Source: an uncultured Candidatus Altimarinota bacterium | GTDB lineage: Bacteria > Patescibacteriota > Gracilibacteria > BD1-5 > UBA2023 | Assembly: GCA_936941205.1 (NCBI GenBank) | Contig: CAKZJF010000080.1 | Span: forward strand, 1 to 34,358 | DNA length: 34,358 bases | Reading direction: 5' to 3' | Shown here: piece by piece, positions 1,168 to 14,395 of the stretch | Layout of the letters: each line of letters starts with the position of its first letter | Position numbering within the stretch: position 1 is the first letter of the stretch | Position numbers and translations under genes: made by a program | The notes under the pieces: model-generated | Told to the model about the DNA's origin: nothing | What the model saw: only the letters and a program-made list of their open reading frames with translations | Databases searched by the model: none

Positions 1168-1731
1168 ATGATTTCTTCTTCTCTAGAAAGAGTGAAAAAT
1201 GGCGATCTAGAAGCCTTTTCTCCTCTCTATGACTTTTCGTATAATCGTGTGTATGCATCGATTTTTCATCGAACCCTCGATACAACCCTTACGGAAGATA
1301 TTATTTCAGAGGTATATATGAAGGCAATAAAAAGCATATCCTCTCTCAAGGCGAAAACTGAATGAGAATTCATGGCATGGATGCTTCGTATAGCCTATAC
1401 TCATCTCGTTGATACAATGCGGGCTCGTAAAGATACCAACTCTATTGATGAAATGATTCATGAGCCCTGATATGAGCTTTCTCATACACAAAATATTGAT
1501 AATAAAAGCATTCTTGAGGAAGTGCTTACTTTTATGGAAACCCTTCCGGAACGTGATCGCATGATTCTTACACTTCGAATATGGGATGATTGTTCTTATG
1601 AGGAGATAGCCCTTATTACATGAGAAAAATCAGATAATTGTAAAAAGATTGTTTCTCGGACTCTTGAAAAGATCAGTGCAAACGTATCATATATGTTTAT
1701 TTTTTCAATCATTCTTACCCATGTCATCTAA
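1168..1731 (+). CDS. ECF-type RNA polymerase sigma factor
   Basis: 187 aa; in-frame TGAs are read as Gly, for example at 1363-1365 and 1621-1623. Region 2 lies at residues ~1-80 (D-L-E-A-F-S-P-L-Y-D... T-L-T-E-D-I-I-S-E-V-Y-M-K-A). Region 4 lies at ~125-180 (L-P-E-R-D-R-M-I-L-T-L-R... S-Y-E-E-I-A, then the helix-turn-helix). It lacks region 3, as ECF sigmas do. It directs RNA polymerase to a small regulon, probably envelope-related. Its 3' end overlaps the next gene by 11 bases, a sign of translational coupling with a membrane-bound partner. Confidence in the family is high; the target genes are unknown. Confidence 0.88.
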
Positions 1732-3172
1732 TCATAAAGAAATCCTCGAAGAACTCTATATACTAGAACCCAAACTTCAACTCCAAGAGAAGAAAATCAT
1801 CACAATTATAGAAAAAATGCAGGCTTGAAAGCCAGATATAGTTATAAACGAAACATTTCGCGAGGAATTAAAAAGTACAGTAATGTCTACTCTCCTTCCT
1901 ACAAAAACTATCAAGACATCATGGAAATTTTGACTATTTGATTTTAAGATTCATATTGCCTCTTGAGCTCTTGCATGCGTATTTATTTGAATGTTTATTT
2001 CACAATCATACTTAGAAATATTTCACTCAAGTATATCTTCATTTGTTCCTCAGATTATTCAGATTGACACTCCTTTTTCTGGTGCAAAACTTCAATACAT
2101 CCCCTCCTCACCCCCTATTAATCCTGCTCTGACTTTCGTTGGGAATACTACAATGAAAATGGAAAATGATCGAATGATAGCTCCAGGAGAACAATTTCCT
2201 TATTATAACTTTACTTTCACTGGAGCAATTCCAGAATATACAGGTTCACTCGATGTTTTTAAAAGAAATGGTGGTACATTTAACCCTGGAGAACTTAGTT
2301 CTTTATTTACAAATTTTCAAATTGAAGGACTCAATTTTCAGGCTTTTGAAAAAATAAGTATCACAAACCTTACCCTAAGTGAAGCTAGGGATTTTGGATA
2401 TATTGTGAGTATTGATCTTCAAAATGGCACTATTACCTTGAATCAAAATTGGGCAAAATGGCCACAATCACATTGTACTGCAGATGGCTGTGATCTTCCT
2501 ACAAAACTAGAAGAAAGTGATATGTCATCAGATGATACAATTATTCAAATTGGGAACGATTTCTTAAAGAAATATGGATTGGATGAATATCACATGACTA
2601 CTCCACAATTGGATAAAAATTGGAAGATTTATTATGCTCAAGCAAAAAAAGAATCCCCTTCAACCGCACAAATTCCTGAACAAGTGACGCTCACATATCC
2701 TCAAACAATTCATGGAATACGGATATATGACGAATATGGAACCTATAAATGACTCTCTCTTGCTTTCGATGTTCGTAATAAGCAGATTGCATCGATGTTT
2801 GGTTTTGAAAAACAATCACTCATACAAGCAAAATATACCGAAATGACCGATACAGCAAATATTCAACAAATTATACGATATGGCTGACGCTATCAGACAC
2901 AATCATTCAGTGGACAGAAAATAAAAGAAGCTTCTCTCGCTTCTCCAAGCATAGGATACGTTCGTCTCTGGTGAGAAACATATGAAGCTGATGGGCGCGG
3001 AAGAGAATTCTATGTTCCAGCATATGTTTTCCCGATTCTCAGTGAAGAGGCTCGTAAAGAAACAGGGCGAGAAAATATTGTAGTTCCTTTAGTGAAAGAT
3101 TTCGCTGAATTTTATCCAATCGATTCATCTGTATCGTCCAATCCAATTCCAACCCCACTTATGGTTCAGTAA
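1721..3172 (+). CDS. single-pass membrane protein, putative anti-sigma factor
   Basis: 483 aa with several TGA-Gly codons. Residues ~1-75 are charged and cytoplasmic-like, ~76-95 form one membrane helix, and the remaining ~390 residues are predicted outside the membrane. The start ATG lies inside the end of the sigma-factor gene. The gene order, coupling and topology match ECF sigma/anti-sigma pairs. I see no recognisable zinc anti-sigma motif (HxxxCxxC), so the role is inferred from context. The outer part has segments resembling sensory or regulatory domains of YycH/YycI type, but I cannot assign it. Possible role: sensing envelope state and releasing the sigma factor. Confidence 0.6.
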
Positions 3173-3202: not shown

Positions 3203-3230
3203 TTGACATAATAAACTAAATATATATAAA
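3203..3230 (+). promoter_or_regulatory. promoter of threonine synthase
   Basis: TTGACA (3203-3208), 16-base spacer, TATAAA (3225-3230). It lies 77 bases before the thrC ATG. Confidence 0.6.
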
Positions 3231-3306
3231 AGATATTATCCAATTCCTAGTAACTTTACCTGGGCGGATATGTTTCTTTTCATACACATACACAAGGAGT
3301 ATTTCC

Positions 3307-4788
3307 ATGCACTACATCAGCACTCGTGGTCAATCCCCACAAGCTCGTTTTTCCGATATTCTTTTGGCCGGACTCGCTCCAGATGGTGGTCTCTATCTTC
3401 CAGAGAATTATCCCAAGGTATCTCTCGAGAAAATGAAAGCATGGCGTCACCTCTCTTACGCAGATTTGGCCCATGCAATCCTTTCACTCTACATTGACGA
3501 TATCCCATCCGATGATCTTCTTGCTATTTGTCGCAAGACATACACGGCAGAAATTTTCAAACACATGGATGAAAGCCATGCGCCCTATTATCCGATTGAT
3601 GGTACCATGGCAGACATTACTCCACTCATATGGCTGGAACCAATGTTTTCTCGAAGTCAGGTAAAGCCAACTGGAGGTATTGCTCTTCTTGGGCTTTCCA
3701 ATGGTCCAACTCTTGCCTTCAAGGATGTAGCACTCCAACTTGTCGGCAATCTCTTTGAATATGTTCTCGAAAAACGTGGGGAAACCCTTACGATTCTTGG
3801 TGCAACTTCCGGAGATACCGGCCCTGCGGCAGAATATGCACTGCGTGGTAAGAAGGGGATTGAGGTATTCATGCTTTCTCCTCACAATGCTGGTATGTCC
3901 CCATTTCAAGCGGCGCAGATGTACAGTTTGCAAGACAGCAATATCCACAACATTGCCATTCATGGAATGTTTGATGATGCGCAAGATATCGTGAAAACGA
4001 TTTCAAGTGATGCTTCTTTTAAAGCCTGCTACAGAATCGGTGCTGTGAACTCAATTAACTGGGCACGTATTCTTGCACAAGTGGTGTATTACTTCAAGGC
4101 ATACTTTGCTGCCACTGAAAATGAAGAAAACAGCATTAACTTTGCCATTCCATCAGGAAACTTCGGCAACGCTTGTGCTGGGCATATAGCACGCATGATG
4201 GGACTTCCGATTGACAAACTCATCATCGCAACCAATGAAAACGATGTGCTTGCAGAATTTTTTGCCACTGGTGTATATCAGCCACGAAAAAAAGCTGAAA
4301 TCACCTCAAGTCCATCTATGGACATAACGAAGGCTTCGAATTTTGAACGCGTTGTCTTCGATATGGTTGGGAGAAATGGTTCACTTACCCGTGAACTATT
4401 CGAAAACCTCAGTACCACTGGGGAATTCCATCTTTCAGCAACCGTGGCAGAAGAGCAGTTTGGCTTTATTGCAACTTCGAGCAGTCATCAAGATCGGCTT
4501 GAGGCAATCGAATTCGTTCATGTGGAAAACAAAGTTTTTATCGATCCACATACGGCAGATGCATATATTGCAGTGGTTAACCTATTGGATGATATCCATG
4601 GTATTACGGTTATTCTCGAGACCGCTCAAGCCTGCAAGTTTGATCAGATTACTTGGGATTCAACCGGGATGGATGTTAAGCGCCCACCAGGCCTCGTAGG
4701 CATTGAAGAGCTTCCACAAAGGGTTGAAGTCATTTTTCCGGATCCGAATATCGTGAAGGCAATGATTGAAGCGGTTTACAAAATATAA
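3307..4788 (+). CDS. thrC: threonine synthase
   Basis: 493 aa, PLP-dependent enzyme that converts O-phosphohomoserine to threonine. The N-terminus (Y-I-S-T-R-G, then L-A-P-D-G-G-L-Y-L-P) is characteristic of the long bacterial/fungal ThrC type. N-G-P-T-L-A-F-K-D carries the PLP lysine K139, followed by G-A-T-S-G-D-T-G-P and I-P-S-G-N-F-G-N phosphate-binding motifs. It starts after a canonical AAGGAG, which is rare in this window. About 32 glycines are all encoded by GGN and none by TGA. It is clearly richer in G+C than its neighbours. No other threonine-pathway gene is present. Both points suggest recent acquisition from a standard-code donor. Confidence 0.96.
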   Translation: MHYISTRGQSPQARFSDILLAGLAPDGGLYLPENYPKVSLEKMKAWRHLSYADLAHAILSLYIDDIPSDDLLAICRKTYTAEIFKHMDESHAPYYPIDGTMADITPLIWLEPMFSRSQVKPTGGIALLGLSNGPTLAFKDVALQLVGNLFEYVLEKRGETLTILGATSGDTGPAAEYALRGKKGIEVFMLSPHNAGMSPFQAAQMYSLQDSNIHNIAIHGMFDDAQDIVKTISSDASFKACYRIGAVNSINWARILAQVVYYFKAYFAATENEENSINFAIPSGNFGNACAGHIARMMGLPIDKLIIATNENDVLAEFFATGVYQPRKKAEITSSPSMDITKASNFERVVFDMVGRNGSLTRELFENLSTTGEFHLSATVAEEQFGFIATSSSHQDRLEAIEFVHVENKVFIDPHTADAYIAVVNLLDDIHGITVILETAQACKFDQITWDSTGMDVKRPPGLVGIEELPQRVEVIFPDPNIVKAMIEAVYKI

Positions 4789-4860
4789 ATACACATATTC
4801 CTGAGAAAGGCAGGAATTATCGAGAATGGGAGGTTTTACTCTCTCTTTTCCGAATAACAG

Positions 4861-4890
4861 AAATAGGGCACAGTGTGCCCTATTTTTATT
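4861..4890. terminator. bidirectional terminator between thrC and the alkD operon
   Basis: Perfect 11-bp stem: AAATAGGGCAC, loop AGT, GTGCCCTATTT, followed by TT-ATT on the plus strand. It lies between two convergent genes and overlaps the end of the minus-strand gene's stop codon region. Confidence 0.8.
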
Positions 4891-5602
4891 TCCCAAGATT
4901 CATATAGTACTTTCTCTTTTCATCATCCAATCGCTCTATCGCATATCGAAGCATGGTTCGTGGCATCTTGAGAGTATATGTATTAAGGAAATCAATTAGT
5001 ACCAATTCATTGACTCTTTTTCATACTTCCCGAAGCATCCATCCACAGGCCTTATGCATGAGATCATGTGGGTGATTGAGGAATCGAGGAATGAGATAGA
5101 AGGTAAGTTTCTCATTTCATTTCTTTATCTGATGAAAACTGGCTATCACTATAATACGCTGTATCCACAGATTTTCACTCGTAATACACTTTTCTATAAA
5201 TAGTACACGCTCTTCATGAGAGAGCGATTCTTCAAGATATGGTCATATGATATCTGGAGCGGAAGTATCAACCAAGTCCCAATTATTAATATGATCCACA
5301 TATCTCATATAGAATTCTCCGAGTTCTTTGATTGGATATATTTTTTTCTTTGCAAAAATGACAAGAGTATGAAGTCATGCAAGTCGCTCTTCATGGTACT
5401 CTGAAGAAAGGAGCTTTTCTATATCCTGAAATGTTGTGGATAAGAGAAAACAGGTAACAATTTTTCTCGTATCTGGAACACTTACTCCGAGAAATGTATC
5501 TCATTCCCCGTATTCTCCAGGTCATGTTTTAAAAAATCGTAATGCTCATAATGCCTTTTCTTTTTGAGCTTTTTTTCTGAGTTCTGTTTGAATTGGGTGC
5601 AT
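4886..5602 (-). CDS. DNA alkylation repair protein, AlkD-like HEAT-repeat glycosylase
   Basis: 238 aa, close to the usual AlkD length. It carries the family hallmarks: F-F-K-T-G-P-G-E-Y near residue 30, F-L-G-V-S-V-P-D-T-R-K-I, N-N-W-D-L-V-D-T, and the C-terminal signature H-K-A-C-G-W-M-L-R-E-V-G-K. Several of these glycines are TGA. AlkD enzymes remove bulky or positively charged alkylated bases without flipping them. It is the last gene of a four-gene operon; its ATG begins three bases after the upstream hydrolase's stop codon. Specific substrate not determinable from sequence alone. Confidence 0.88.
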
Positions 5603-11750: not shown

Positions 11751-12935
11751 TTATAACCCACTCCCCAACTCCAAATACTCCACTTTTTCTAGCTTTCCGC
11801 CGAGCATCCCCCCAAGATCCCCATACATCCCCCCAGTATTCTTGATGACTTGTTCGAGAAGTTGCTCTCGTTTTTTCCATCTTGATTCGAATGCTCGACG
11901 CTCCTCAGCCACTTGATCCTGCATCTGACGGAATGCATCGATGATGTTCTCGACCTTATCCTTGAACTTCGCACTTGTGAGATAGTTATAGACCACTTCC
12001 ATCTTTTCATCCTTGGAGACGAGAGATGTACGGAGGTGTGCCATCGCTTCGATCTGTCCACGAAGCATCGTAGCTATGGGGAGGACATATGCCCACTCGA
12101 CAAGCCAAACCCCCTTGTAGAGACCGAATTTTTCAACATCTTTCGGGAGAACAGCGGTCACGAGAATCGAGATATCCGCATTTACACGGAGACGATCTTC
12201 CTTGAGTTTCTCTACCCAGCCATCACTCCATGCCTTTGTATTCTTGGATTCCCAGGCAATAATCCCAACCGATTGTCCGAATTCATTGCGAACTTCCTGA
12301 ATAATATCTGCTCACTTAATTCCTTTTTCTACATCGGTAATATTATCGATAGGGAAGTTGTGACCGAGAAGTTCCTTGAGTGCATCTTCTTGGATTTCTC
12401 ACTGGATTTGCATCGAACCTTGTTCCCCCTTACGTTTAGCATCTTCGATAGCTCGTTGCATCTGTGCAATCTGTTCATCTTTGGCTCGAAGTTTTTTCTC
12501 CGTTTCAAGATCTTGTTTTTCGAGTTCGAGCTTGAGCTTGTCTTGTGTCTGCTTCGCAAATTCTTCTTCGAGTTTTTTGCGTTCTTCAATACGAGCACGA
12601 TCCTTTTCGAGTTCAAGATTTTTCTTGAGCATCTCGAATTCATTCTGTTGACGGAGGAATTGTTCTTCTTTTTTTCTTGCTTCATCATCACGTTTTCGGA
12701 GCGACTCAAGTTCGATCGATTGCTTGCGAGCAGTCTCTTCAGATTCGAGTTTTGCCTTTGCGATTTGCTCTTGAGCCCAAGAAAGTGCTCGTTTATCTGA
12801 ATCTGCTTTAATCTCAGCTTGGAGCTTTTTTTCAAGCTCTATTTTCATCGCTTCAAGCTCGTGTTTCTGGGCATCATCGAGAGAAAAATCACGATGACAG
12901 TGTGGACAAGTGATAAGATTCTGATTTGTTGTCAT
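11751..12935 (-). CDS. DUF2130-family coiled-coil protein
   Basis: 394 aa. It opens with a CxxC pair (C-P-H-C) in a short zinc-ribbon-like start, then a long E/K/Q-rich coiled coil (~25-175). The globular DUF2130 domain follows: G-A-D-I-I-Q-E-V-R-N-E-F-G, I-A-W-E-S-K-N-T-K-A-W, and R-V-N-A-D-I-S-I-L-V-T-A. The E-S-K-x-T core resembles restriction-endonuclease-like folds, but function is not established for the family. Only two of about two dozen glycines are TGA, well below most neighbours. Overall codon use is more GC-rich, hinting at later acquisition. Confidence 0.85.
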
Positions 12936-13341: not shown

Positions 13342-13377
13342 AAAATATCCCTATAGTCTAAGGATATTTCTTTTTTT
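13342..13377 (-). terminator. hairpin after the serine hydrolase gene
   Basis: Stem AAATATCC (13343-13350) with GGATATTT (13362-13369), 11-base loop. On the minus strand it ends in TTTTGATT. It lies next to the stop at 13376. Confidence 0.55.
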
Positions 13378-14395
13378 ATTCTGGAAAGGCCTTACTGATT
13401 TCTTCATGAATAATCTTTGCTGTTTGTCCAAGTACTTTTGAAAGTTCAGAAAAATTATTTCAACGTGTCATAATACAGAGAAGATAAGGATATTGTTTAT
13501 AATATACAATACCACAATCATGGAGTTGCTTTACCTCTTTTTTTGTTTTTTCATCAATATAACCACGCTCTCAGAATTTATGTGCTATGCTAACTTTTTC
13601 TGGAATTCATTGACGAATACCTTCCTTAAATTCACTTCGTGCAAGTACTGAGAGTGCATATTCTGATGAATCCCGCGATAAATATGCAGCATTATACAAG
13701 ATACGAAAGAGCGATGCATATTGCTGGATAGTTAAAAAGTCTCCAACATTCAAGTTTTCTGGTAAATGAATTCAAAGTTCGGTCAAAACTGTTTTGTTGA
13801 TATCTTCAGGCAAGGAAAAAAGAAGAGATTGCAAAGCAAGATTATCTGATTTTATAATCATCGACTCAAGTAAATCTTTAGGTTTATAACTTTTTCATAC
13901 CTGAACAGTATTTGATGCTGGATACATTGGTTCATAAGGGAGAATCAGTTCCGATGGAATAATATCCTGCTCTATGATTGCTGGATTTTTTTCCATCCAC
14001 TTCATATATGTTATAAAAATAGGAAGCTTCATAAGACTTGCTGGACTGAATGCCAAATTCTCATTAATTCCAAACCAAGGACCATTATTTAAACTTCGGA
14101 CATACAATGCAAGAGATACATCTGGATATTGGCTTTGTATTTCATTGCGTATTCGTACCTTGGACACTCATTCAAAAGGGACATACTTCGTATGATTGGA
14201 AATACTTGTAAGCTCACATTCCAATAATGGGCTTATATATTTATATACTGAAGATGTATCACGAACCATATAATCTTCTCATCACTTTATATCATCTTGA
14301 TGTGTTTGTGAAAGAAAAAATCAATAGTTCCCCAAAAAATATCCTATAACAAATATTCATCATCAAAATAAATATCTAACATTAAAACGATTCAT
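13376..14395 (-). CDS. class A beta-lactamase-like serine hydrolase, membrane-anchored
   Basis: 339 aa. The N-terminus has a membrane segment or signal (residues ~8-27) that includes three consecutive TGA-Gly codons. The penicillin-interacting fold carries S120-x-x-K123 (S-L-M-K), K-S-D-N for the SDN motif, and H-K-F-G near the end in place of K-T-G. These are the marks of class A beta-lactamases and related carboxypeptidase-like proteins. It probably acts outside the membrane on peptidoglycan or a beta-lactam. It lacks the usual E166 region that I could assign with certainty, so resistance is not implied. Transcribed divergently from the DUF4012 gene. Confidence 0.82.

Follow-up and report, generated by a model that had tools for sequence, protein, structure and literature searches.

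A threonine synthase gene without UGA codons in a code-25 gracilibacterium, probably an old transfer from a betaproteobacterium

The window, the whole 34,358-nucleotide stretch of DNA analysed here, carries a threonine synthase gene (thrC) placed between two native genes. The nearest sequence to its product, at 73% identity, comes from a second Gracilibacterium of the same genus (SSGK01000038, loci L009 and L145, genome G353), referred to below as the sister species. The elements of the locus are as follows.

1649..3172, forward strand: upstream native gene, function not assigned; TGA at 7 of 31 glycines; syntenic in G353, 55% identity
3203..3208, forward strand: -35 element of thrC, TTGACA; the unit TTGACA-N16-TATAAA also occurs in L145
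3225..3230, forward strand: putative -10 element of thrC, TATAAA; same spacing in L145
3277..3306, forward strand: 5' leader with the AAGGAG ribosome site at 3294-3299; CACATACACAAGGAGTATTTCC is identical in both species
3307..4788, forward strand: thrC, threonine synthase, 493 amino acids; TIGR00260, E=1e-70; PF14821, E=7e-29; PLP lysine K139 kept
4797..4817, forward strand: hairpin just 3' of the thrC stop; ATTCCTG..CAGGAAT in the window, TTCCTG..CAGGAA in L145
4861..4885, no strand assigned: strong terminator hairpin common to thrC and the convergent gene; at this position L145 also has a terminator, with another sequence
4886..5602, reverse strand: downstream native gene, DNA alkylation repair family (PF08713); TGA at 7 of 13 glycines; syntenic in G353, 78% identity

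The open reading frame runs from an ATG to a TAA with no in-frame TGA. An earlier reading made from the letters of the DNA (the sequence-only reading) had assigned the interval 3203-4788, which begins at the promoter; the gene itself starts at 3307. The same reading had proposed a promoter and a canonical ribosome site belonging to thrC, and both are present: TTGACA-N16-TATAAA is conserved in the sister species, and AAGGAG lies 7 nt upstream of the ATG. The promoter call rests on this conservation, since a generic consensus scan, which demands a T at the last -10 base where thrC has an A, did not list it. The 22 nt of leader up to the ATG are identical between the species, even though 65% of the 4-fold sites of the gene differ. 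A conserved 5' attenuator was considered and rejected, as a strong hairpin is confined to G353 (z=-5.5; window 0.05); there, a 14-bp hairpin with a T-run follows directly on the thrC -10 element (L145 2338-2380) and is degenerate in the window. Elsewhere in the window, a beta-lactamase-fold protein (13376-14395, reverse strand; PF13354, 2.5e-29) is conserved in G353.

Assignment of the product to ThrC is clear. It scores 238.5 bits against TIGR00260, for which the curated cut-off is 167.1, carries the Thr_synth_N domain PF14821 (100 bits) and matches the solved relative 3v7n with 535 bits in phmmer. The catalytic lysine K139 is intact, as are 134 of the 143 near-invariant ThrC columns in both the window and the G353 copies, 9 being changed in one or the other. 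One of these nine changes, the odd substitution S173P just after the GDTG motif, is seen in the window copy and not in that of G353. As judged from the comparison of the two copies (dN 0.20, dS saturated), thrC is under strong purifying selection and hence in use, and its product is predicted to be a working threonine synthase.

The enzyme appears to work without its usual partners, as the sequence-only reading had noted for the window; the genome-wide search extends that to the whole of this 99%-complete genome. Neither a homoserine dehydrogenase (Homoserine_dh) nor a ThrB of either type was found, apart from one sub-threshold 18-bit ThrB fragment with an internal TAG. Only two AA_kinase proteins occur, in frames of 233-242 aa, which by their length would be too short for aspartokinase. 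A threonine-to-glycine route was rejected, as no member of the threonine aldolase family was found in this genome. Because no way to make homoserine or its phosphate was found, the most likely role of ThrC would be to produce threonine from O-phosphohomoserine taken from other cells. Gracilibacteria and Absconditabacteria are regarded as feeding on material from hosts or prey. Scavenging would match the dependence on hosts and the predation that have been reported for related bacteria (PMC8080830, PMC6851277). Promiscuous action of the enzyme on another substrate is possible.

The reading of UGA as glycine (code 25) is established in these bacteria (PMC6851277, PMC8080830) and is supported here by the sister species, where the residue opposite a TGA is glycine in 97 of 142 non-TGA partners. 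All 32 glycines of thrC are nevertheless encoded by GGN, with no TGA, while the flanking genes use TGA for 23-54% of their glycines and the pooled genome sample for 31% (2278/7442 = 0.306; binomial p = 8e-6 for 0/32). These genome statistics come from about 418 kb of sampled stretches, a few of which read as N. The gene also has a higher GC content than the whole window (0.448 vs 0.344) and a higher GC4 than its window neighbours (0.383 vs ~0.32). Both the absence of TGA and the raised GC were thus correctly described by the sequence-only reading. GGA, the sole GGN codon one step from TGA, accounts for 6 of the 32 glycines in the window copy and 3 of 32 in the G353 copy.

Phylogenetic analysis places the origin of thrC outside the Gracilibacteria. 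After the sister species, the next-nearest matches are betaproteobacteria, nearly all Rhodocyclales, at ~60% identity, in a search whose exact 8-residue seeds bias the sampling. In a 71-row ThrC tree, the window and G353 copies pair with full support (100/100) and nest in a set of 34 rows (support 98/92), nearly all the rest of which are betaproteobacterial. A clade of the window ThrC with the UGA-bearing ThrC of recoded relatives is rejected by the AU test (p=3.7e-6). The test was run on a smaller tree, which did not fix the exact place relative to Rhodocyclales but in which a joint clade with them is not rejected (p=0.31). Within the class (353 genomes), this ThrC is confined to the two genomes of this genus, and no ThrC match of any kind was found among the 20 other family members listed. 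With supported nesting in a distant donor clade and absence from close relatives, we regard transfer from a betaproteobacterial lineage as established on phylogenetic grounds. Grouping with another Gracilibacterium ThrC goes against the expectation of the sequence-only reading, but the position of the pair inside Betaproteobacteria agrees with it.

Several vehicles and artefacts were considered. Contamination or misassembly is unlikely, as the gene order on either side of thrC recurs in an independent assembly (G353). Plasmid carriage was set aside, the best eight plasmid matches being 48-54% identical and a close source not being among them. Phage carriage was likewise set aside, as no thrC relative was matched in viral contigs, although a search needing exact 8-residue matches makes this weak evidence. 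A record labelled Paceibacterota (L078) holds a Rhodocyclales-type ThrC (58%), by misbinning or by another transfer into a candidate phylum.

The sister species allows the transfer to be dated relative to the species split. In G353, thrC occupies the same locus: the genes to either side correspond, as do the promoter, leader, hairpin after the stop and terminator position. Its identity to the window copy falls within the range of the neighbours (54-81%), and the proportion of differing 4-fold sites is close to theirs (65% against 60%). Because of this shared locus, the 73% identity and the near-saturated synonymous sites, we place the acquisition before the split of the two species. The gene is neither absent from the sister species nor near-identical to a donor: it is syntenic in G353, and the best donor-side identity is 60%. 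At columns that are conserved across Rhodocyclales, the two copies have 33 derived residues in common, and both are shifted to AT-coded amino acids (FYMINK/GARP 1.14 and 1.04 vs a reference median of 0.79), which supports a single acquisition and a subsequent common history in the host. The common stem of the pair is also long (0.73 vs 0.26 for the tips).

The G353 gene is TGA-free across the enzyme part as well. Its frame passes one TGA beyond the enzyme and continues to a TAG (L145 3883-3969), adding ~27 residues; speculatively, this TGA could be a relic of the donor stop codon. As the acquisition predates the species split, the absence of UGA is not a clock. Of the claim that thrC is newly acquired, the horizontal origin from a standard-code bacterium stands (tree, AU test) and the recency does not, given the syntenic G353 copy at 73% identity. 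The further suggestion that the gene is not yet adapted to the recoded genome finds no support, as thrC has been UGA-free in both species through a long divergence.

Taken together, the position in the tree, the locus, promoter, leader and 3' layout common to both species, the strong purifying selection and the lack of detected pathway partners lead us to favour (probability about 0.8) an old transfer from a betaproteobacterium near Rhodocyclales, before the split of the two known species of the genus. Mechanistically, the gene would have been inserted between two native genes, and purifying selection would since have kept ThrC active on O-phosphohomoserine obtained from other cells. It would have arrived UGA-free, with glycine codons that are still mostly not GGA, and a bias against UGA in the well-expressed genes of this genome may have helped to exclude the codon. 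With arrival without UGA, few GGA codons and UGA disfavoured, UGA-freedom would be a lasting mark of foreign origin and not of youth.

One observation speaks against a single old transfer: both copies keep a GC4 above the median (0.38; 0.51-0.52) despite near-complete turnover of other 4-fold sites since the split, which would also fit a later re-acquisition. Related donors could have repeatedly supplied fresh UGA-free copies that displaced the thrC coding sequence, a reading for which the sister family offers a precedent. In its genus g279, where UGA encodes 72% of the glycines of one sampled genome, a different ThrC lies between recJ and a recX-like gene (loci L163, L164 and L165) and has UGA at 0/29, 0/21 and 1/29 glycines in three species, the single TGA being near the C-terminus. 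Between two of these genomes, G405 and G406, thrC forms a sharp block of 56% amino acid identity between neighbours that are 84-98% identical, so that repeated displacement at that one locus appears a real possibility. In the genus of the window, the neighbours of thrC are too diverged to reveal such an abrupt step. Against displacement here stand the identity of thrC within the neighbour range, the identical leader, and the shared derived residues and long common stem, which point to a shared history; we consider it unlikely.

Alternatively, thrC could be so highly expressed that it avoids UGA as EF-Tu does, its origin being irrelevant. Native genes do show such avoidance, with UGA at 0/39 glycines in EF-Tu, 0/19 in EF-Ts, 1/32 in L2 and 5/97 in RpoB, so the idea that vertically inherited genes would not shun TGA equally holds only in part. 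UGA takes 8% of glycines in the high-expression set against 32% elsewhere, its share decreases as an expression-like codon score rises (rho=-0.53) with no effect of GC4, and the promoter and ribosome site of thrC look strong. However, thrC has a moderate codon score, no higher than the 83rd percentile, from which 23% UGA would be predicted (P(0/32) = 3e-4), the gene keeps GGG, GGC and GC-ending codons that are largely missing from EF-Tu, and the ThrC tree shows a foreign origin. Translational selection as the sole cause is therefore quite unlikely.

The remaining question is how much UGA should have entered by now. From the glycine columns of neighbour orthologues, 6-9 UGA codons are expected over the two thrC lineages since the species split (P(0) = 4e-5 to 2e-3), and 3.3 at ribosomal-operon rates (P=0.035). 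If UGA arises through GGA alone, only one or two gains are expected; as GGA is rare in both copies and is the sole one-step source, a lag may suffice for thrC taken alone. That thrC is recent and has had no time to gain UGA, as the missing UGA, the higher GC and the rare GGA could suggest, is very unlikely: the locus, leader and terminator position are common to a diverged sister species with synonymous sites near saturation, the neighbour-based rates make zero UGA improbable, and the sister copy already contradicts it unless two separate acquisitions occurred.

Other UGA-free genes were found in the order. IlvC in two species (L223 8333-9820 and L165 3587-5074, both reverse strand) has UGA at 0/38 and 0/47 glycines amid genes with 70-95% UGA. 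Its sequence is of the plant type, scoring 596 bits with spinach and 586 with rice, against 181 for the next match. The pair is 82% identical with a 4-fold difference of 0.32, like its neighbours, so that it has been vertically inherited since the two species split; about 11 UGA would be expected (P(0)=1e-5). A dihydroorotate-dehydrogenase-like gene of the window's genome (L136 8026-9018, reverse strand; UGA 0/35) is patchy, with five matches, each UGA-free, among the 77 genomes of the order. By contrast, UGA is abundant in the other ThrC lineages and the bacterial-type IlvC of recoded relatives. Genome G406 has further UGA-free genes on the reverse strand, DapD-like (L174 649-1797) and for an Na+/H+ exchanger family protein (L186 12999-14312), and on the forward strand one for a 904-aa protein without known domain (L173 4798-7512).

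A GC-rich, UGA-poor DUF2130 gene of the window (11751-12935, reverse strand; 2 UGA, GC4 0.45) was rejected as a second foreign gene, as it is widespread in the order and contains UGA in most genomes. It is 97% identical to its counterpart in G344, of another genus, and 58% to that of G353, a pattern that suggests exchange between recoded Gracilibacteria.

Our reading is that acquired standard-code genes stay UGA-free long after their base composition has converged, through slow entry of the codon and some selection. A stronger version, in which decoding of UGA as glycine is selected against and UGA absence becomes a durable fossil of transfer far beyond compositional amelioration, is tentative and perhaps the less probable option; its clearest case would be the plant-type IlvC. 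In either form, the lack of a reassigned codon cannot be read as youth; it can still flag a foreign gene whose base composition has already converged, with the reservation that native highly expressed genes have the same trait. Were this general, UGA content would offer a simple way, independent of composition, to follow genes flowing into recoded, host-dependent bacteria, and would hint at a cost of decoding UGA as glycine. A limited search of partial literature found no report of persistent UGA-freedom in acquired chromosomal genes.

Compared with known systems, the enzyme resembles betaproteobacterial ThrC (Rhodocyclales, 3v7n) over its full length, in identity, catalytic lysine and near-invariant positions, and differs in that thrC stands alone, neither homoserine dehydrogenase nor homoserine kinase having been found in this genome, and in its AT-shifted composition. 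With the ThrC of other recoded Gracilibacteria it shares the enzyme family and the genetic code, but those are different lineages, 36-45% identical by tblastn, with UGA at 11-16 of 33-45 glycines (G378, G383 and G379) or 23-29 of 32-34 (G365, G367 and G412). The 126 transferred genes reported for Vampirococcus (Absconditabacteria; PMC8080830) are likewise of foreign origin, with various donors, in a host-dependent lineage that uses code 25; that paper gives counts, and no use of UGA content as a marker was found in it. Finally, like the code-11-compatible, UGA-free phages described for code-25 Gracilibacteria (PMC10746230), thrC can be read in both codes; those phage genomes are under host-range pressure, whereas thrC is a chromosomal enzyme gene.
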